Source: Seohaeicola zhoushanensis (GTDB lineage: Bacteria; Pseudomonadota; Alphaproteobacteria; Rhodobacterales; Rhodobacteraceae). From it: DNA of 64,000 nucleotides. The position numbers and the translations under genes were made by a program. Positions within the stretch are counted from its first letter, which is position 1. The number at the start of each line of letters is the position of its first letter. Shown in pieces: positions 42,987-51,554 of this stretch. A model generated the notes under the pieces. That model searched no databases, was not told where the DNA came from, and was given only the letters and a program-made list of their open reading frames with translations. Location: positions 124,001 through 188,000 of the forward strand of contig NZ_BNCJ01000004.1 in NCBI RefSeq assembly GCF_014656415.1. Direction: 5' to 3'.

Positions 42987-44045
42987 TCACTCGGCCAGGC
43001 TGAAGCCCTCGATCAATTGCCGCAGCCCGACCGCCGCGCCGGCGAAGATGGCGCAGAGCGTCAGCGGGGCGCTGAGCGCAAGAACGCTCATCCCCGACAT
43101 GCCCTGGCCGACGGTACAACCCATCGCGATCACCGCGCCCGCGCCCATGATCGCCGCCCCGATGATCTGGCGGCGCAGCTCGCGCGGGTCCTCGCAGGCC
43201 TCCCAGCGGAACCGGCCCTGGATCACCGACCCGGCAAAGGCGCCGAGCCAGACACCGGCAACCGAGCCGACGGCGAAGGACAGCGGCCGGGCGCTGCCGG
43301 TCATGGCGTAGAGAATGGTCTCGCCCACCGGGGCCGAGAAGCTGTGCGACACCACGCCCGTTGCGGCAAAGCCATGCGCCTGCACCCAGGCGGTCCCGGC
43401 CCAGCCCGAGACGATGGCGAGCGCGACGGCCAGCGACCAGGCGATGGCCTTGATATCGCGCCGGAAGGGCTGTGAGGCCAGCGCCAGCCCGCAGATCGCC
43501 ACGCCGATCGCCATGCCGATGCCCGCCACCGGCAGGTGGGTCAGCGCCGCGACGTGATGGGCGATGCCGGGCGGCGTGCCCGAGGTCACGTCTTCCTGGT
43601 GGAACAGCAGGTCGCGCAGCGGGGCGAAGGGGCCGGCGAGCACGGCATAGGCGGAAACCCCCATCACCAGAACCACCACGAAGGAGCGCAGGTCGCCGCC
43701 GCCAAGCCGCGCGATGGCGCCGTAGCCGCAGTTCCCGGACAGCGCCATGCCATAGCCGAACATCAGCCCGCCGATCACGGCGGCCACCGGCATCCAGCGG
43801 ATCGAGAGGTAGAAGGTGCTGCCGCCGTCAAGCAGCCCGGCGCCCATCAGGCCGAAGGTGCCGATCACCGCGACGCCGACTGCCAGCGCCCACATCCGGA
43901 TGCGGGCGTCGGAACCGCCGTAGAGCAGGTCCTCGATCGCGCCCAGCGAGCAGAACCGCCCCAGCCGCGCCGCCAGTCCCAGCAGGATGCCGCCGAAAAG
44001 ACCCACAGCTGTCACCAGCTGGGTCTCCGTCGCCCAGGCCATCAT
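42987..44045 (-). CDS. YeeE/YedE (SoxT-like) sulfur-compound transporter
   Basis: A 352-residue inner-membrane protein of the YeeE/YedE family with about ten hydrophobic segments. Two family motifs with cysteines are visible: GLAARLGRFCSLGA near residues 24-37, and LSGNCGYGAIARLGGGD, with a third in AMGCTVGQGMSGMS near the C-terminus. Such proteins carry thiosulfate or other reduced sulfur, and SoxT proteins of this family sit beside sox genes. It is 24 bases downstream of soxR on the same strand. Confidence 0.87.
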   Translation of the reverse strand: MMAWATETQLVTAVGLFGGILLGLAARLGRFCSLGAIEDLLYGGSDARIRMWALAVGVAVIGTFGLMGAGLLDGGSTFYLSIRWMPVAAVIGGLMFGYGMALSGNCGYGAIARLGGGDLRSFVVVLVMGVSAYAVLAGPFAPLRDLLFHQEDVTSGTPPGIAHHVAALTHLPVAGIGMAIGVAICGLALASQPFRRDIKAIAWSLAVALAIVSGWAGTAWVQAHGFAATGVVSHSFSAPVGETILYAMTGSARPLSFAVGSVAGVWLGAFAGSVIQGRFRWEACEDPRELRRQIIGAAIMGAGAVIAMGCTVGQGMSGMSVLALSAPLTLCAIFAGAAVGLRQLIEGFSLAE

Positions 44046-44069: not shown

Positions 44070-44405
44070 TCAGTCTTGGCTGCAGAACAGCTCGTAGACC
44101 ACTTCCAGAATACGCCGGGGGCGATCATCCGCCAACCGGTAATAGATCGCCTTGCCGTCCCGGCGCGGGATGACCAGCCCTTCGAGCCGCAGGCGCGACA
44201 ACTGCTGCGAGACTGCCGCCTGGCGGGCCGAGAGCAGGTCTTCCAGCTCGGTCACCGATTTCTCGCCGGTGACCAGGTGGCAGAGGATCATCAGCCGCCC
44301 TTCGTGGCTGATTGCCTTGAGAAAGTTCGAGGCCGTCGTCGCGTTGTCGACCATGCGGTCGAGGTCTTCGTCCGAGGTGTCAGGCGTGAAACGGGGCAGG
44401 GCCAT
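44070..44405 (-). CDS. soxR: Sox locus repressor SoxR (ArsR family)
   Basis: A 111-residue ArsR-type winged-helix regulator. The HTH is shown by ATTASNFLKAISHEGRLMILCHLVTGEKSVTELEDLLSARQAAVSQQLSRLRLEGLV, with a cysteine at about 40 and another near the C-terminus (LFCSQD), which may sense thiol state. The start is at ATG 44405. Its position next to soxS and opposite soxV matches the SoxR repressor of Paracoccus/Pseudaminobacter-type sox loci, whose sites are AT-rich repeats like those seen at 45313, 46773 and 49116. Confidence 0.88.
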   Translation of the reverse strand: MALPRFTPDTSDEDLDRMVDNATTASNFLKAISHEGRLMILCHLVTGEKSVTELEDLLSARQAAVSQQLSRLRLEGLVIPRRDGKAIYYRLADDRPRRILEVVYELFCSQD

Positions 44406-44415
44406 GCGTCGTCCT

Positions 44416-44907
44416 TCAGAAAGCAATCTCGTCGGCGATGGCGGCGATACCCGCCTCGGCGCAGACTTCATCGAGTTCGGGAGAGGGGGCGCCCGAGACG
44501 CCGATCCCGGCGACCATCGCGCCGCCGCCCTCGTTGATCATCAGCCCGCCGCCCAGCGGCAGGGCCTCGCTCAGGTGGCGGATGCCGGACGAGATCTGCC
44601 CGGCCTCGGTGCTGGCGGCAAGCTCGCCGGTCGCGGCGCGGAAGCTGACCGCCGTCCAGGCCTTGCGGCGCGAGGTCTCGTAGACATGCAGCCCGGCGAA
44701 ACGGTCGCGCACGAAGGCCTGCGGCAGGCCGAAGCGGTCGACCACGGTGACACCCACCTGGTAGCCGCCGTCACGGCAGTTCTCCATCGCCGCCACCGCG
44801 GCCTTGAGCGCCAGTTCCGGCGTCAGCACCTGGAAATCGACCAGCGCGCTGTCCTGTGCCGAGGCGCTGCCGGCGGCAAAAGCCAGCGCAAGTGCAAGTG
44901 TCCTCAT
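44416..44907 (-). CDS. GlcG/HbpS-like heme-binding periplasmic protein
   Basis: A 163-residue exported protein with signal peptide MRTLALALAFAAGSASA and a GlcG/HbpS-type (DUF336) domain: LALKAAVAAMENCRDGGYQVGVTVVDRFGLPQAFVRD and the GGLMINEGGGAMVAGIGVSGAPSPELDEVCAEAG motif. Members bind heme or small ligands. It overlaps soxS by 4 nt and lies 10 bases before soxR, so it belongs to the sox regulatory operon. A role in sensing heme or redox for the Sox cytochromes is inference. Confidence 0.83.
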   Translation of the reverse strand: MRTLALALAFAAGSASAQDSALVDFQVLTPELALKAAVAAMENCRDGGYQVGVTVVDRFGLPQAFVRDRFAGLHVYETSRRKAWTAVSFRAATGELAASTEAGQISSGIRHLSEALPLGGGLMINEGGGAMVAGIGVSGAPSPELDEVCAEAGIAAIADEIAF

Positions 44908-45272
44908 GATCCCTCTCCCTTGTAGTCCGAATGTTGCCGCAGCATCTCGTCCAGCAGCGGCCAGAAGAACTGGTCGCCCGCATAGCCTTCCATCCGCGCC
45001 AGTTCGCGGTTGTCCTCGACCAGCAGGAAGGTCGGCGTGAACAGCACCCGACGGGCGGTTTTCAGCTCGGACGGCATCGCGTGCAGGTCGACCCGGCGCA
45101 GCGGCGCGAAGCGGCCTTCGGCGGTCTTTGGATAGGCCGGGGCGATCTGTTCGTTCCAATGCGCGCAATAGATACACCCGGCCTGTTCGACCATCACCAG
45201 TTCGACCGCCCGGGCTGGCAGGGCGGTCGCCGCGACAACGATCGCGGCCAGCAGGATTTTCAGCCGGAGCAT
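44904..45272 (-). CDS. soxS: Periplasmic thioredoxin-like protein SoxS
   Basis: A 122-residue periplasmic thioredoxin-like protein. The signal peptide covers about residues 1-22 (MLRLKILLAAIVVAATALPARA) and the redox motif is C33-I-Y-C36 in EQAGCIYCAHWN. SoxS activates the SoxY sulfur carrier by reductive action in related systems. It overlaps the heme-binding protein gene by 4 nt and is transcribed divergently from soxV across a 97-base gap with an operator-like repeat. Confidence 0.88.
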   Translation of the reverse strand: MLRLKILLAAIVVAATALPARAVELVMVEQAGCIYCAHWNEQIAPAYPKTAEGRFAPLRRVDLHAMPSELKTARRVLFTPTFLLVEDNRELARMEGYAGDQFFWPLLDEMLRQHSDYKGEGS

Positions 45273-45312
45273 CAGGCGACCCGTTGACGTTTCCTTCTTC
45301 CACAACCTAATT

Positions 45313-45325
45313 TGAATATGTGAAT
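45313..45325. promoter_or_regulatory. Putative SoxR operator between soxS and soxV
   Basis: The 13 bases TGAATATGTGAAT contain two TGAAT units and share the TGTGAAT half-site with the repeat before soxC. It sits midway between the divergent soxS and soxV genes. Assignment is by position and half-site similarity. Confidence 0.5.
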
Positions 45326-45369
45326 AGATCAAGCGGACGGAAGGGATTCCGGGCCGCGGAGGCCTTGCA

Positions 45370-46107
45370 ATGCTGGATATTACGCTGATGGGCGCGCTGA
45401 TTGCCGGGGTGCTCAGCTTCTTTACCCCCTGCATCCTGCCGATGGTGCCCTTCTACCTCTCCTACATGGGTGGCCTGAGCATGGCCGAGCTGCGCGGCGA
45501 CGGGGCCATAGCACCGGGGGCGCAGCGCCGGCTGATCACCTCGTCGATCGCCTTCGCGCTGGGCGTGACCACGATATTCATGGGCCTCGGCATGGGCGCC
45601 ACGGCGCTCGGCAGCCTCTTCGTGCAGTATCTCGACCCGCTGTCCTGGGTCGCCGCCGCCATCCTGGTGGTCTTCGGCCTGCATTTCCTCGGCATCGTCC
45701 GGATCCCTCTGCTCTACCGGCAGGCGCGGATGGAATCGACCGCGCCGGCCACCACCTTTGTCGGCGCCTATGTCATGGGCCTCGCCTTCGGCTTTGGCTG
45801 GACCCCCTGCGTCGGCCCGGCGCTGGCTTCGATCCTGATGATCGCAAGCGGCATGGGCGAGATCTGGCGCGGCGCGCTGCTGCTCTTCGTCTATGGCGTC
45901 GGCATGACCGCGCCCTTCGTGATCGCCGCCTTTTTCGCCAAGCCCTTCCTCGCCTGGGTCCAGCGCCACCGCGCCGCCTTTGCCTGGGTCGAGAAGGGCA
46001 TGGGCGTCATGCTTATTCTCTTCGCTCTCCTGATCGTGACCGGGGGCGTGAACTGGATCGCGCAATTGATGATAGAATGGTTTCCGGGCTTCCAGTCGGT
46101 AGGCTGA
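45370..46107 (+). CDS. soxV: Thiol-transport membrane protein SoxV (CcdA-like)
   Basis: A 245-residue inner-membrane protein of the CcdA family with about six membrane segments. The cysteine-containing F-F-T-P-C-I-L-P-M-V-P-F motif is near residues 18-29, and the second reactive Cys is in FGWTPCVGPALAS. SoxV carries electrons from cytoplasmic thioredoxin to periplasmic SoxW/SoxS. It is the first gene of the rightward sox operon, 22 bases from soxW. Confidence 0.91.
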   Translation: MLDITLMGALIAGVLSFFTPCILPMVPFYLSYMGGLSMAELRGDGAIAPGAQRRLITSSIAFALGVTTIFMGLGMGATALGSLFVQYLDPLSWVAAAILVVFGLHFLGIVRIPLLYRQARMESTAPATTFVGAYVMGLAFGFGWTPCVGPALASILMIASGMGEIWRGALLLFVYGVGMTAPFVIAAFFAKPFLAWVQRHRAAFAWVEKGMGVMLILFALLIVTGGVNWIAQLMIEWFPGFQSVG

Positions 46108-46129
46108 CCCGCCTCAGGAGGAGAGAGAC

Positions 46130-46711
46130 ATGAGACATTTCCTGGCCGGCATTTTTGCCATCGCCATGGCCCTGCCGGCAGCGGCCGAGGTCGTCATGGG
46201 AGACGACGGTCTGCATAAGGCGGACTGGCTGCACGATACCTTCAAGGATCTCCAGGAAGACGCGGCAACGGCCAAGTCCGAGGGCAAGCGCCTGCTGATT
46301 CTGGTCGAGCAGCGCGGCTGCCTCTACTGCAAGGACATGCACGAGAACACCTTCACCGACCCGCGGGTCCGCAAGATGCTGGAAGAGGTCTATTACCCGG
46401 TCCAGATGAACCTGCACGGCGATATCGAGATCGTTGACACCGACGGGGAGTCGCTGAGCGAGAAGGCCGCGGCGCGCAAGTGGAACGTGCTGTTCACCCC
46501 GACGATGCTGTTCATGCCGCCCGAGATCGACGAGACGAAGTCGATCGTTCAGCAGGCCGTGGCCGTGATGCCGGGGGCCTTCTCGGCAGGAACCACGCTC
46601 GACATGATGACCTGGGTTGCCGAGAGCCGCTACCTCGACCAGTCCGAGGAGGATTTCCAACGCTATCACGCCCGCATGATTCGCGAGCGCAACGATGGTG
46701 ACACCCGCTGA
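46130..46711 (+). CDS. soxW: Periplasmic thioredoxin SoxW
   Basis: A 193-residue secreted thioredoxin-like protein. The signal peptide is residues 1-19 and the redox centre is C64-L-Y-C67 (EQRGCLYCKDMHENTF). The V-L-F-T-P-T-M-L-F region is the cis-proline-like loop. It pairs with SoxV to keep SoxYZ reduced. It lies 22 bases after soxV and 169 bases before soxX; the gap holds an operator-like repeat. Confidence 0.9.
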   Translation: MRHFLAGIFAIAMALPAAAEVVMGDDGLHKADWLHDTFKDLQEDAATAKSEGKRLLILVEQRGCLYCKDMHENTFTDPRVRKMLEEVYYPVQMNLHGDIEIVDTDGESLSEKAAARKWNVLFTPTMLFMPPEIDETKSIVQQAVAVMPGAFSAGTTLDMMTWVAESRYLDQSEEDFQRYHARMIRERNDGDTR

Positions 46712-46772
46712 ATGGGGCTGTATCCAGAGGGGAAGCCACTGAATTTGCGAGCTGCGCCGGAGGCATCTCAAT

Positions 46773-46790
46773 AATTCATATCAATGAATT
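46773..46790. promoter_or_regulatory. Putative SoxR operator upstream of soxX
   Basis: An inverted repeat AATTCATATCAATGAATT (arms ATTCAT / ATGAAT) lies about 90 bases before soxX, in the expected place for regulation of soxXYZA. Similar half-sites are found before soxV and soxC. Confidence 0.55.
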
Positions 46791-46880
46791 TGTTGTTGCG
46801 TCTCGACCGTCCGGTAGTCTAGTTTGACTGGAACAGAGGAGGTCGGGCCGCATGCGGCGCGCAGCCCTGAGGGAGGGAAC

Positions 46881-47354
46881 ATGAAGAAACTGATGATCAC
46901 GGCCGTCGCGATCTCCGCGCTCGGAGCAGGCGTGGCCATGGCCGACGGTGTCGTCGCGCCGGGGGATGTCAAATTCGAGGACGGCGCGGTCGCCATGTCG
47001 CTCACCGGTGTTCCCGGCGATCCGAGCAAGGCGTCCGAACTGATGGACCGCAAGTTCGGCAACTGCATCGCCTGCCACCAGATCAGCGCGCTGGATCTGC
47101 CCTTCCCGGGCGAGATCGGCCCGCCGCTGGATGGCGCCGGCAGCCGCTGGACCGAGGCCCAGCTGCGCGGCATCGTGAGCAATGCGAAGATGACCTTCGA
47201 AGACTCGATGATGCCCGCCTTCTACAAGACCGAAGGCTACATCCGTCCCGGCGTCGCCTTCACCAGCAAAGCCCCGGAAGGCCCGCTCGATCCGCTGCTG
47301 ACCGCGCAGCAGGTCGAGGATGTCGTCGCCTTCCTGATGACGCTCAAGGAATAA
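46881..47354 (+). CDS. soxX: Sulfur oxidation c-type cytochrome SoxX
   Basis: A 157-residue periplasmic mono-heme cytochrome. The signal peptide is about residues 1-22, and the heme site C62-I-A-C-H66 (GNCIACHQI) is followed by SMMPAFYK, whose methionine is the likely axial ligand. SoxX pairs with SoxA to load thiosulfate onto SoxYZ. It starts at ATG 46881 after a GAGGGAGG ribosome site; earlier in-frame GTG is disfavoured. It heads soxXYZA. Confidence 0.93.
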   Translation: MKKLMITAVAISALGAGVAMADGVVAPGDVKFEDGAVAMSLTGVPGDPSKASELMDRKFGNCIACHQISALDLPFPGEIGPPLDGAGSRWTEAQLRGIVSNAKMTFEDSMMPAFYKTEGYIRPGVAFTSKAPEGPLDPLLTAQQVEDVVAFLMTLKE

Positions 47355-47393
47355 CGCGCCCCGGCGCGTGTGCTCACCAAGGAGTATAGGAAC

Positions 47394-47819
47394 ATGGAGT
47401 TCACAAGACGCGATACGCTTGCTCTCGGCCTCGGCGCCGCAGTGCTGAGCGTTCTGCCCATCCGCGCCGCCAAGGCGGCCGCGACGACCGACGAGCTGAT
47501 CGCCGAATTCACCGGCGGCGCCGCGTTGGCCGACAGCGGTGTCACCCTGACCGCGCCCGAGATCGCCGAGAACGGCAACACCGTTCCGATCGACGTCGCG
47601 GCGCCGGGCGCAAGCGCCATCATGGTGCTGGCCACCGGCAACCCGACCCCGCCGGTCGCGACCTTCAACTTCGGCCCGCTGGCCGCATCGCAGGCCGCCT
47701 CGACCCGTATCCGCCTCGCCAAGACGCAGGATCTGATCGCCATTGCCAAGCTGGCCGACGGCAGCTTTGCCAAGGCCTCGGCAACGGTCAAGGTCACCAT
47801 CGGCGGCTGCGGCGGCTGA
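47394..47819 (+). CDS. soxY: Sulfur carrier subunit SoxY
   Basis: A 141-residue periplasmic sulfur-carrier subunit. It has a Tat signal (F-T-R-R-D-T-L-A-L-G-L) and the C-terminal swinging arm G-G-C139-G-G that carries the sulfur intermediate. The ATG at 47394 follows AAGGAG at 47379; an upstream in-frame ATG at 47370 is disfavoured. soxZ follows 25 bases later. Confidence 0.94.
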   Translation: MEFTRRDTLALGLGAAVLSVLPIRAAKAAATTDELIAEFTGGAALADSGVTLTAPEIAENGNTVPIDVAAPGASAIMVLATGNPTPPVATFNFGPLAASQAASTRIRLAKTQDLIAIAKLADGSFAKASATVKVTIGGCGG

Positions 47820-47844
47820 AGCCCTTATTCAGGAGAACAAAGAC

Positions 47845-48174
47845 ATGGCATCTGGTGTCAAACCCCGGGTCAAGGTTCCGAAAACCGCCGCTGCTGGCGA
47901 AGCCGTCACCATCAAGACGCTGATCAGCCACGAGATGGAAAGCGGCCAGCGCAAGGACAAGGATGGCAAGGTCATCCCGCGTTCGATCATCAACCGCTTC
48001 ACCTGCATGTTCAACGGGCAGCTGGTGATCGACGTCACGCTCGAACCGGCGATCTCGACCAACCCCTATTTCCAGTTCGACGCGACCGTCCCGGAATCGG
48101 GCGACTTCGCGTTTACCTGGTACGATGACGACGGGTCGGTCTACGAGGACAAGCAGTCCATCAAGGTCGGCTGA
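47845..48174 (+). CDS. soxZ: Sulfur carrier partner subunit SoxZ
   Basis: A 109-residue cytoplasmically synthesised partner exported with SoxY by Tat hitch-hiking. The typical P-R-V-K-V-P-K start, TIKTLISHEMESGQRKD and the Ig-like FTWYDDDGSVYEDKQSIKV end identify it. AGGAGA precedes the ATG by about 8 bases. It lies between soxY and soxA. Confidence 0.94.
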   Translation: MASGVKPRVKVPKTAAAGEAVTIKTLISHEMESGQRKDKDGKVIPRSIINRFTCMFNGQLVIDVTLEPAISTNPYFQFDATVPESGDFAFTWYDDDGSVYEDKQSIKVG

Positions 48175-48201
48175 GCCGGGCTCACAGGGAGGAACCACAA
48201 C

Positions 48202-49065
48202 ATGACAAGACTGCTCAGGGCAACGACCCTGGTCTCGGCGGCGCTGGTCTCTGTCGGCCTTGCGCTGCCGGTGCTGGCCGACGAAGAGGCCGACCTGGTC
48301 GTCAACGGTGATCTCAAGATGGTCACCCATGCACCGGCCCCGGCCCATCTCGACGGCGCCCTCAGCGAAGTGATCTCGGGCTGGGTGTTCCGCTCGGACG
48401 AGACGCAGGCGCTCCAGATGGACGACTTCGACAACCCCGGCATGGTGTTCGTCGACAAGGCCATGGAGGTCTGGAACACGGTCGACGGGTCCGAGGGCAA
48501 GTCCTGCGCGTCCTGTCACAACGATCCGGCCGAGAGCATGAAGGGCGTCCGCGCGGTCTATCCGAAGTGGAACGAAACCGCGAACGAGGTGCGCACCATC
48601 GCCGCGCAGGTCAACGACTGCCGCGAGAACCGCATGGGCGCAAAGCCCTGGAAATACGAAGGCGACGACATGGCCGAGATGGAGGCGCTGATCGCCCTTC
48701 AGTCGCGCGGCATGACGGTGAACGTCGCCATCGACGGCCCGGTCCAGTCGACCTGGGAGCAGGGCAAGGAAATCTACTACACCCGCTACGGTCAGCTCGA
48801 ACTCAGCTGCGCGAATTGCCATGAGAACAACTATGGCAACATGATCCGCGCCGACCACCTGAGCCAGGGCCAGATCAACGGCTTCCCGGCCTACCGGCTC
48901 AAGAACACCAAGCTGAACACGGTCCACGACCGCTTCAAGGGCTGCATCCGCGACACCCGCGCCGTGCCGTTCAAGCCGGGCGGGCCCGAGTTCACCGCGC
49001 TCGAGCTCTATGTGGCCAGCCGTGGCAACGGTCTGTCGGTCGAAGGTCCGTCGGTCCGCAACTGA
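48202..49065 (+). CDS. soxA: Diheme cytochrome SoxA
   Basis: A 287-residue periplasmic c-type cytochrome. The signal peptide is about residues 1-26. Two heme motifs are present, C102-A-S-C-H106 and C203-A-N-C-H207, so this is the diheme form. The active-site cysteine ligand of the second heme is C248 in FKGCIRDTR, which carries the cysteine persulfide in SoxAX. With SoxX it joins thiosulfate to SoxY. A strong terminator follows, and soxB is not the next gene. Confidence 0.94.
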   Translation: MTRLLRATTLVSAALVSVGLALPVLADEEADLVVNGDLKMVTHAPAPAHLDGALSEVISGWVFRSDETQALQMDDFDNPGMVFVDKAMEVWNTVDGSEGKSCASCHNDPAESMKGVRAVYPKWNETANEVRTIAAQVNDCRENRMGAKPWKYEGDDMAEMEALIALQSRGMTVNVAIDGPVQSTWEQGKEIYYTRYGQLELSCANCHENNYGNMIRADHLSQGQINGFPAYRLKNTKLNTVHDRFKGCIRDTRAVPFKPGGPEFTALELYVASRGNGLSVEGPSVRN

Positions 49066-49074
49066 TCGCAATAC

Positions 49075-49105
49075 CCCCGCGCCTCGCAAGGGCGCGGGGT
49101 TTTTT
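49075..49105 (+). terminator. Rho-independent terminator after soxA
   Basis: A 9-bp perfect stem CCCCGCGCC / GGCGCGGGG with a TCGCAAG loop followed by six T. It ends the soxXYZA transcript. Confidence 0.92.
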
Positions 49106-49115
49106 GTCTTTTACT

Positions 49116-49144
49116 AATTCACACATGCGAATGTGTTGTGAATT
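49116..49144. promoter_or_regulatory. Putative SoxR operator before soxC
   Basis: Nested inverted repeats: outer arms AATTCACA (49116-49123) and TGTGAATT (49137-49144), inner arms CACAT / ATGTG (49122-49126, 49131-49135). It lies between the soxA terminator and soxC and suggests a separate promoter for soxCD. Confidence 0.6.
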
Positions 49145-49207
49145 GAGCGGGCCGCCGGGCGGCCATCGGGGCGGGCATCGGCCCGCATCAGCACGAGGAA
49201 GGAATCC

Positions 49208-50470
49208 ATGAGCAAGGGGTCCAACAACAACCCGTCGCGGCGGCAGTTCCTGTCCGGCGCGGCGGTCGCCGGCGCGGGCATCGCCGTCGCCGGTGCAGCG
49301 CGGGCGGGCGATCCGCTGATCACCGAGGTGCAGCAATGGGCGCGCGGCCTGGGCGAGGGCGTCGACGCCACGCCCTACGGCCTGCCGATCCGCTTCGAGA
49401 CCGACGTGGTGCGGCGCAACGTGCCCTGGCTGACCGCCGACCCGATCAGCTCGATCAACTTCACGCCGATCCACGCGCTTGACGGCACCATCACCCCGCA
49501 GGGCTGCGCCTTCGAACGGCACCACTCGGGCGCGATCGAGCTCAGCAAGGACGACTACCGGCTGATGATCAACGGCCTCGTCGATACGCCGCTGGTCTTC
49601 ACCTATGCCGACCTCGAACGCTTCCCGCGCCAGACGCATGTGTATTTCTGCGAATGCGCGGCGAATACCGGCATGGAATGGGCCGGCGCGCAGTTGAACG
49701 GCGCGCAGTTCACCCACGGCATGATCCACAACATGGAATATACCGGCATCCCGCTGAGGACCCTGCTGGAAGAGGCCGGCTTCGACACCTCGGCCAAATG
49801 GGTCTATGTCGAGGGGGCCGATGCCTCGTCCAACGGCCGCTCGATCCCGATGGAGAAGGCGCTCGACGACGTGCTGGTCGCCTTCAAGGCCAACGGCGAG
49901 GCGCTGCGCAAGGAGCATGGCTATCCCGTGCGCCTGGTGGTGCCGGGCTGGGAAGGCAACATGTGGGTCAAGTGGCTGCGCCGCATCGAGGTGGCCGACG
50001 CCCCGGTCGAAAGCCGCGAGGAGACCTCCAAGTATACCGACACGCTGGCCAACGGCGTCTCGCGCAAGTGGACCTGGGTGATGGACGCCAAGTCGATCAT
50101 CACCTCGCCCAGCCCGCAGGCGCCCATCCGCCACGGCCACGGCCCGCTGGTCATCACCGGCCTGGCCTGGTCGGGCCGCGGCGCGATCAGCCGCGTCGAC
50201 ATCTCCAAGGACGGCGGCAAGACCTGGGAAACCGCCCGCCTCGCCAAGCCCGGCGAGAAGATGGCGCTCACCCGCTTCTACCTCGACACCACCTGGAACG
50301 GCGAGGAAATGCTGCTGCAGGCCCGCGCGATGGACGAAACCGGCTATGTCCAGCCGACCAAGGCGCAGCTGCGCGAGGTGCGGGGCGAGAACTCGATCTA
50401 TCACAACAACTGCATCCAGACCTGGTGGGTGCAATCGAACGGCGAGGCGGAAAATGTCGAAGTTTCCTAA
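49208..50470 (+). CDS. soxC: Sulfane dehydrogenase subunit SoxC (molybdopterin)
   Basis: A 420-residue periplasmic molybdenum-cofactor protein of the sulfite-oxidase family. It has a Tat signal (S-R-R-Q-F-L-S-G) and the molybdenum-ligand cysteine in YFCECAANTGMEW near residues 150-158. The C-terminal dimerisation domain is present to TWWVQSNGEAENV. With SoxD it oxidises the sulfane sulfur on SoxYZ and spares electrons. Its 3' end overlaps soxD by 17 bases. Confidence 0.94.
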   Translation: MSKGSNNNPSRRQFLSGAAVAGAGIAVAGAARAGDPLITEVQQWARGLGEGVDATPYGLPIRFETDVVRRNVPWLTADPISSINFTPIHALDGTITPQGCAFERHHSGAIELSKDDYRLMINGLVDTPLVFTYADLERFPRQTHVYFCECAANTGMEWAGAQLNGAQFTHGMIHNMEYTGIPLRTLLEEAGFDTSAKWVYVEGADASSNGRSIPMEKALDDVLVAFKANGEALRKEHGYPVRLVVPGWEGNMWVKWLRRIEVADAPVESREETSKYTDTLANGVSRKWTWVMDAKSIITSPSPQAPIRHGHGPLVITGLAWSGRGAISRVDISKDGGKTWETARLAKPGEKMALTRFYLDTTWNGEEMLLQARAMDETGYVQPTKAQLREVRGENSIYHNNCIQTWWVQSNGEAENVEVS

Positions 50471-51554
50471 GCATCTGGCGATTGCCCTGGCTGGTGCGCT
50501 GGTGGTTGCCGGCCCCGCCTCGGCCGAGAAGTTCGGCCTCGGCCGCCCGGCCGCGCCCGACGAGATCGCGGCCTGGGACCATGACGTCAACCCCGAGGGC
50601 GTCGGCCTGCCGGTCGGCTCGGGCTCGGTCGAGGACGGCGAGGCGCTGTTCGGCGACTATTGCGCGATCTGCCACGGCGACTTCGCCGAGGGCGTCGACA
50701 ATTGGCCCAAGCTGGCGGGCGGGCAGGGCACGCTCGACCACAAGGACCCGCTCAAGACGGTGGGGTCCTACTGGCCGCATGTCACCACCACCTGGGATTA
50801 CGTCAACCGCTCGATGCCCTTCGGCAACGCGCAGACCCTGACGGTCGACGAGGTCTATGCCGTGGTGGCCTATATCCTCTATTCCAACGACCTCGTGGAA
50901 GACGACTTCGTCCTCTCGAACGAGAACCTGCTGGACATCGAGCTGCCCAACAAGGACGGCTTCATCATCGACGACCGCGCCGAGAGCGAATATTCGAAGT
51001 GGTCGGGCGAACCCTGCATGACCGACTGCAAGGACAAGGTCGAGATCACCATGCGGGCGATGGTGCTCGACGTGACCCCGGAAGAGACCAAGGCGCGCAA
51101 GGTGCAGGAACTGGTGAAATCCACCAACCCGCGCAACGCGGCAGCCGCCGAGGCGGTGCCGGCTGCGGCCGAGGCCACGACCGAGGCACCGGCAGCCGAA
51201 GAGGCCAAGCCCGAGGAGACCGCCGCGCTCGACCCGGCGCTGGTCGCCAAGGGCGAGACCGTGTTCAAGAAATGTGCAGCCTGCCACCAGGTGGGCGAGG
51301 GCGCCAAGAACAAGGTCGGCCCGATGCTGAACGCTGTCTTCGGCCATCCGGCGGGCGCGGTCGAAGGCTTCGGCTATTCCAAGCAGCTGAAGGCGGCGGC
51401 CGAGGGCGGCCTGGTCTGGGACGACGCCACGCTGGCCGAGTTCCTCGCGAAGCCGCGCGACTACATCAAGGGCACCAAGATGTCCTTCAACGGGCTGAAG
51501 AAGGACGAGGAAATCGCGGCGGTGATCGCCTATCTCAAGTCCTTCGCGCAGTAA
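50454..51554 (+). CDS. soxD: Diheme cytochrome SoxD
   Basis: A 366-residue periplasmic diheme cytochrome c, electron acceptor for SoxC. The signal peptide is about residues 1-24. Heme motifs are C70-A-I-C-H74 and C274-A-A-C-H278. An alanine/glutamate/proline-rich linker separates the two cytochrome domains. The ATG at 50454 lies inside the soxC 3' end. The downstream soxE-H genes of classical clusters are missing; clpP follows after 314 bases. Confidence 0.92.
   Translation: MSKFPKHLAIALAGALVVAGPASAEKFGLGRPAAPDEIAAWDHDVNPEGVGLPVGSGSVEDGEALFGDYCAICHGDFAEGVDNWPKLAGGQGTLDHKDPLKTVGSYWPHVTTTWDYVNRSMPFGNAQTLTVDEVYAVVAYILYSNDLVEDDFVLSNENLLDIELPNKDGFIIDDRAESEYSKWSGEPCMTDCKDKVEITMRAMVLDVTPEETKARKVQELVKSTNPRNAAAAEAVPAAAEATTEAPAAEEAKPEETAALDPALVAKGETVFKKCAACHQVGEGAKNKVGPMLNAVFGHPAGAVEGFGYSKQLKAAAEGGLVWDDATLAEFLAKPRDYIKGTKMSFNGLKKDEEIAAVIAYLKSFAQ

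Follow-up and report, generated by a model that had tools for sequence, protein, structure and literature searches.

Can a bacterium oxidise thiosulfate completely when its sox cluster lacks soxB? SoxB frees the sulfate bound to the SoxYZ carrier, and full oxidation of thiosulfate is ascribed to SoxXYZABCD (PMC6397845). The question is raised by a sox cluster in a 64,000-nucleotide stretch of the genome of Seohaeicola zhoushanensis, a member of the Rhodobacteraceae (contig NZ_BNCJ01000004.1, here C4, positions 124001-188000; this whole stretch is referred to as the window). Both ends of C4 are over 115 kb away from the cluster, in an assembly of 5.5 Mb and 78 contigs (completeness 100, contamination 0.44%). 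The initial annotation listed soxR, soxS, soxV, soxW, soxX, soxY, soxZ, soxA, soxC and soxD as present and intact, and all are open (Table 1). It reported soxB and soxE-H as missing. In agreement, there is no soxB between soxA and soxC or elsewhere in the cluster, and inspection by eye of the open frames listed after soxD found no soxE-H there. It proposed that soxB is encoded elsewhere or, alternatively, that thiosulfate is oxidised incompletely or through another hydrolase. We consider it very probable that a foreign, rhizobial-type soxB displaced the resident gene from a distant locus, and that a complete Sox system is encoded at two separate loci.

An intact soxB on a second contig

Searching the genome with the SoxB model (TIGR04486) gave a single match over the 550-bit cut-off (C3:137-1819, minus strand, 826 bits); three further matches fell below it, at 157, 56 and 52 bits. 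The match lies outside the window, in an open frame of 565 residues (G000:C3:131-1828, minus strand; G000 is this genome). At 134 columns that are invariant in 62 other SoxBs, the detached SoxB has no departures and that of the genus mate described below has one. DVH, GGD, AHWE, SHNG and GHTH, the motifs of the SoxB metal site, are all present, and TRRDF, seen near the N-terminus of the translation, is a candidate twin-arginine export signal. Residues 46-564 align (392 bits) with the solved SoxB structure PDB 2wdc, from Thermus thermophilus, which is of the same enzyme family and distant in sequence. By its sequence, the detached gene encodes an intact TIGR04486 SoxB thiosulfohydrolase. All seven proteins of SoxXYZABCD are encoded in the genome (X, Y, Z, A, B and C over cut-off, D by synteny and similarity only). 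The first of the two proposals is right in that soxB is encoded elsewhere, and the pathway, with its genes at two loci, is probably complete.

To place this arrangement in the family, 198 genomes were searched with SoxB and with SoxC. SoxB was matched in 129 and SoxC in 122, all of which hold both; seven genomes have a SoxB match and no SoxC match. The order soxA-soxB-soxC was correctly described as usual: soxC follows soxB within 550 bases in 116 of the 122 genomes (less than 500 bases in 112, 513-550 in four), and at 2.5-3.2 kb in two. One genome has soxB behind soxC and soxD on the same contig. The order in G172:C10 (L154), which belongs to the family and has a genome of 2.1 Mb, is soxYZ-CD-B, with soxB behind soxD. 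Altogether, soxB and soxC share one contig in 119 of the 122 genomes and are on different contigs in three: S. zhoushanensis, its genus mate Pseudooceanicola sp. HKST-UBA97 (G001, a metagenome-assembled genome that is 66% complete) and Loktanella sp. IMCC34160 (G163). In both G001 and G163, soxC comes directly after soxA with no soxB between. When the search was widened to 394 genomes of the family (possibly overlapping the 198, with the top candidates alone scored), no further SoxB more than 63% identical to that of this genome was found at E 1e-240. Among Roseobacter biofilm strains, complete sox clusters were reported in 50 of 54, in a near-identical pattern except in three strains (PMC10090131).

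Affinity of the detached SoxBs

The SoxB of this genome is 90% identical to that of G001 and 87% identical to that of G163, and the latter two are 85% identical to each other. SoxBs in the rest of the 198-genome sample are 56-63% identical to that of this genome, despite SoxC identities of 80-89% to the window's protein in many of these genomes. Beyond the sample, the closest SoxBs encoded within clusters, at 72-80%, are those of Mesorhizobium, Phyllobacteriaceae and Hoeflea (74-80% for these three) and of other Alphaproteobacteria (among the best 80 of 564 loci). In a SoxB tree of 65 rows, the three detached SoxBs form a starred group among rhizobial-type SoxBs. A clade of family SoxBs, with L074 (a metagenome-assembled genome labelled Rhodobacteraceae) left out, was rejected by the approximately unbiased (AU) test (log-likelihood difference 92, p-AU 0.00016). 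In the SoxC tree, the window and G001 fall inside the main group of the family, which also includes L072 and L074, and G163 is placed elsewhere among family SoxCs. The detached soxB appears to be of foreign, rhizobial type, akin to genes of a different bacterial order, and the resident soxB appears to have been lost.

Also identified were clusters in L072 and L074 that combine a rhizobial-type SoxB, a distant SoxA (49-50% identical to the window's) and a Rhodobacteraceae-like SoxC (80-84%). Judged by these affinities, the two clusters are mosaic.

A PtsP-like housekeeping protein of this genome, recognised by its Pfam domains, shares 76% identity with its counterpart in G163 and 77-81% with those in G006, G107, G141 and G063, all of which have soxB beside soxC; it has no match in G001. 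On these identities, two gains of the foreign soxB, or a transfer, would be more likely than a single shared ancestral gain.

The soxA-soxC gap and the sites of the detached genes

SoxR represses sox genes and responds to sulfane sulfur (PMC10451225). As originally described, the gap between soxA and soxC measures 142 bases and holds a terminator and an operator-like palindrome. By eye, most of the relatives' clusters inspected show a terminator-like hairpin behind soxA, next a palindrome of type AATTCACACATGCGAATGTGTG, and after it soxB. An operator matrix was built from 20 relatives (60 intergenic stretches of their sox clusters), with the three split genomes left out; in 15 of the 20 it finds a site of at least 15 bits between soxA and soxB. 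Its three best places in the window, overlapping shifts ignored, are the soxV, soxC and soxX promoters (Table 1); the next unrelated place scores 10.1 bits. In G001 and G163, the stretch between soxA and soxC scores 16.1 and 15.6 bits, respectively. The window's gap matches the soxA-soxB gap of relatives with soxB gone: of 22 clusters, local alignment favours this gap over the one between soxB and soxC in 20 for the window, and in 17, with one tie, for G001. Resident soxB remnants were sought in the gap and only chance-level matches were found (E 2.4 here, E 1.3 in G163). Given its likeness to the relatives' soxA-soxB promoter, we read the terminator and operator-like repeat, most simply, as a promoter that once served the lost soxB and now precedes soxCD.

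The best operator-like place around each of the three detached soxBs lies no more than 55 bases from the soxB start. It scores 11.2 bits here (20.0 kb), 7.6 bits in G001 (7.6-kb contig) and 12.6 bits in G163 (18.0 kb), and dinucleotide shuffles of 150 bases match these scores in 3, 26 and 6 cases per 2000, respectively. No such site precedes 11 rhizobial-side in-cluster soxBs (4.6 bits or less), although these were scored with a matrix from Rhodobacteraceae. A weaker candidate SoxR operator precedes each detached soxB.

The surroundings of the three genes were compared over 20 kb on one side in this genome, 7.6 kb in G001 and 18 kb in G163, and soxB alone is common to all at E 1e-10. Here soxB comes after a LysR gene. 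In G001 it follows a gene that we name hflX; at the hflX locus of this genome (C11), no soxB is present in the approximately 1.5 kb seen behind hflX. The end of C3 carries a repeat (G000:C3:1-95) that stands some 35-70 bases behind soxB. Bases 1-62 are repeated at the far end of C3, stretches of 85-93 bases occur at five other contig ends, and bases 53 to approximately 95 have less similar copies at numerous sites inside contigs (44 matches altogether). The repeat has no match among plasmids and none in other family genomes (384-genome search, top two candidates per genome scored). Spread of soxB by plasmid was considered and rejected: 24 plasmid records have a match, none above 61% identity.

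The cluster resembles the complete Sox (cSox) cluster of Alphaproteobacteria, soxRS-VWXYZABCD, in gene set, gene order, ArsR-type regulator gene and SoxR-type operators. It differs from the canonical form in that soxB is on another contig and of another lineage, rather than between soxA and soxC. The names soxR, soxS, soxV, soxW and soxD are based on synteny and similarity with relatives' clusters; the soxR product is over cut-off only for the general ArsR/SmtB model of NCBIfam. The HbpS-like gene is likewise present in several relatives' clusters. A genome search with PF09242 (the SoxF flavoprotein domain) was silent, as were its controls, so the silence does not show that the genome lacks soxF. 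A stricter whole-genome operator pattern has one extra match outside the sox loci (G000:C1:466121-466136, one mismatch).

Table 1. Features of the sox cluster, in window positions.
Feature	Position	Strand	Evidence
soxT-like YeeE/YedE membrane transporter	42987..44045	-	TsuA/YeeE-type NCBIfam matches below cut-off; synteny in relatives
soxR, ArsR-type repressor	44070..44408	-	HTH_metalloreg over cut-off; BigR model below cut-off; synteny
HbpS-like gene of the haem-degrading family, flanked by soxR and soxS	44416..44910	-	PF03928, 98 bits
soxS, thioredoxin-like	44904..45275	-	No NCBIfam match; Pfam Thioredoxin_2 below cut-off; synteny
Candidate SoxR-type operator, soxS/soxV promoter	45307..45326	+	27.6 bits, top place in the 64-kb window
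soxV (CcdA/DsbD-like)	45370..46107	+	DsbD-type models below cut-off; synteny
soxW (thioredoxin-like)	46130..46711	+	DsbD model below cut-off; synteny
Candidate SoxR-type operator, soxX promoter	46773..46792	-	22.6 bits, third-best place in window
soxX	46881..47354	+	TIGR04485 over cut-off
soxY, carrier ending in GGCGG	47394..47819	+	TIGR04488 over cut-off
soxZ	47845..48174	+	TIGR04490 over cut-off
soxA	48202..49065	+	TIGR04484 over cut-off
soxA-soxC gap, read as relic of soxA-soxB intergenic region, soxB absent	49066..49207	+	Local alignments
Intrinsic terminator after soxA	49075..49099	+	10-pair stem and T-tract
Candidate SoxR-type operator, read as left from soxB promoter, now ahead of soxC	49116..49135	-	27.4 bits, second-best place in 64 kb; agrees with relatives' soxA-soxB operators
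soxC	49208..50470	+	TIGR04555, 590 bits, over cut-off
soxD	50454..51554	+	c-type cytochrome models below cut-off; synteny

Proposed displacement from afar, its rivals and its meaning

Displacement from a distant locus would have begun with the arrival of the foreign soxB, making the resident gene redundant. Deletion of the resident soxB would then have brought its old promoter ahead of soxCD, which would thereby have retained a SoxR-controlled promoter. SoxR may repress both loci until sulfane sulfur appears, and the foreign SoxB would act on the native SoxYZ carrier, with thiosulfate oxidised fully to sulfate. It is possible, if short of probable, that a self-regulated, single-gene soxB roams the Rhodobacteraceae. 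Such a gene would land at unrelated sites with its own SoxR operator and displace the resident soxB, and would have done so at least two independent times (in the Pseudooceanicola-like genus and in Loktanella sp. IMCC34160), also shifting its place within the genus.

Several observations count against displacement from afar. L074 bears an 80% identical SoxB inside its cluster. The trees are 'quick' ones with support from the Shimodaira-Hasegawa-like approximate likelihood ratio test (SH-aLRT) only and without bootstrapping, and the AU test used a clade defined once the identities were known. The G163 gap favours the relatives' soxA-soxB gap weakly, in only 13 of 22 clusters with two ties. By the matrix, five of the 20 relatives have no operator in the soxA-soxB gap, and in three of the five, G141, G063 and G040 (loci L165, L166 and L177), an operator-like site stands before soxC instead (by eye); in the SoxC tree, only the genus mate is closer to the window than G063. 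The sites ahead of the detached soxBs score below nearly all cluster operators (mostly 15-29 bits), and among 2149 stretches of 150 bases taken from this genome, 0.56%, 0.84% and 0.42% reach 11.2, 7.6 and 12.6 bits, respectively. The stricter pattern lists the soxV and soxC sites and neither the soxB nor the soxX site. Finally, C3 terminates 130 bases behind soxB, and the downstream side lies beyond the contig.

The rival that survives best, although we regard it as unlikely, is that a rhizobial-type soxB first replaced the resident gene inside the cluster and later moved out. L072 and L074 have such a SoxB in place, next to a SoxC grouping with those of Rhodobacteraceae, and the in-cluster SoxB of L074 is sister to the detached SoxBs (support 94, not starred). 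However, the soxA-soxC gap keeps a family-type terminator and operator, the L074 soxA-soxB gap has no operator, and the SoxAs of L074 and the window share only 49% identity.

Mere relocation of the resident soxB within its own lineage is highly improbable. The detached gene has a host-like base composition (GC 0.664, vs 0.669 for soxC and 0.672 for the window; soxB 0.620 and soxC 0.622 in G163), but its product is only 56-63% identical to SoxBs of the family sample, the three split genomes apart, and both the SoxB tree and the AU test (under the model used) speak against a family origin. An assembly artefact is barely credible. In its favour, the repeat in which C3 ends, just behind soxB, is found at seven contig termini in total, yet C3 spans 390 kb, genome contamination is low and the genus mate has a 90% identical SoxB. 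Collapse of the junction, considered in the initial annotation, is unlikely, as soxA is directly followed by soxC in two other genomes too. Genuine absence of soxB, with thiosulfate oxidised partly or via another hydrolase, deserves almost no weight: soxB is lacking from the cluster, but the intact SoxB on C3 refutes this at the gene level and makes incomplete oxidation or another hydrolase superfluous for explaining the gene content.

Both a detached soxB and the exchange of a single sox gene have precedents; displacement from afar with a relic promoter is the addition made here. In Thiomicrospira crunogena, soxB is not contiguous with soxXYZA, and SoxCD, SoxYZ and SoxB are reported to differ in phylogeny (PMC2958825). 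Unlike here, soxCD is also apart from soxXYZA in that organism, which belongs to another bacterial class, and the passages of the account that concern these genes describe no relic promoter (PMC2958825). In Starkeya novella, one sox gene, soxA, is proposed to have been swapped for a laterally transferred copy, but in place, by homologous recombination and with no relocation (PMC4003848). No report of a detached foreign soxB in Rhodobacteraceae was found in the literature searched, a scope from which subscription journals mostly fall out.

These findings suggest that a tightly clustered multi-enzyme pathway can swap one catalytic part for a foreign copy sited elsewhere, and that the old site may keep a readable relic of the displaced gene. 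A gene missing from the cluster need not mean that the pathway is missing. soxB is a frequent marker gene for sulfur oxidisers, and it can misplace its host: SoxB alone would put the three split genomes among rhizobial relatives.

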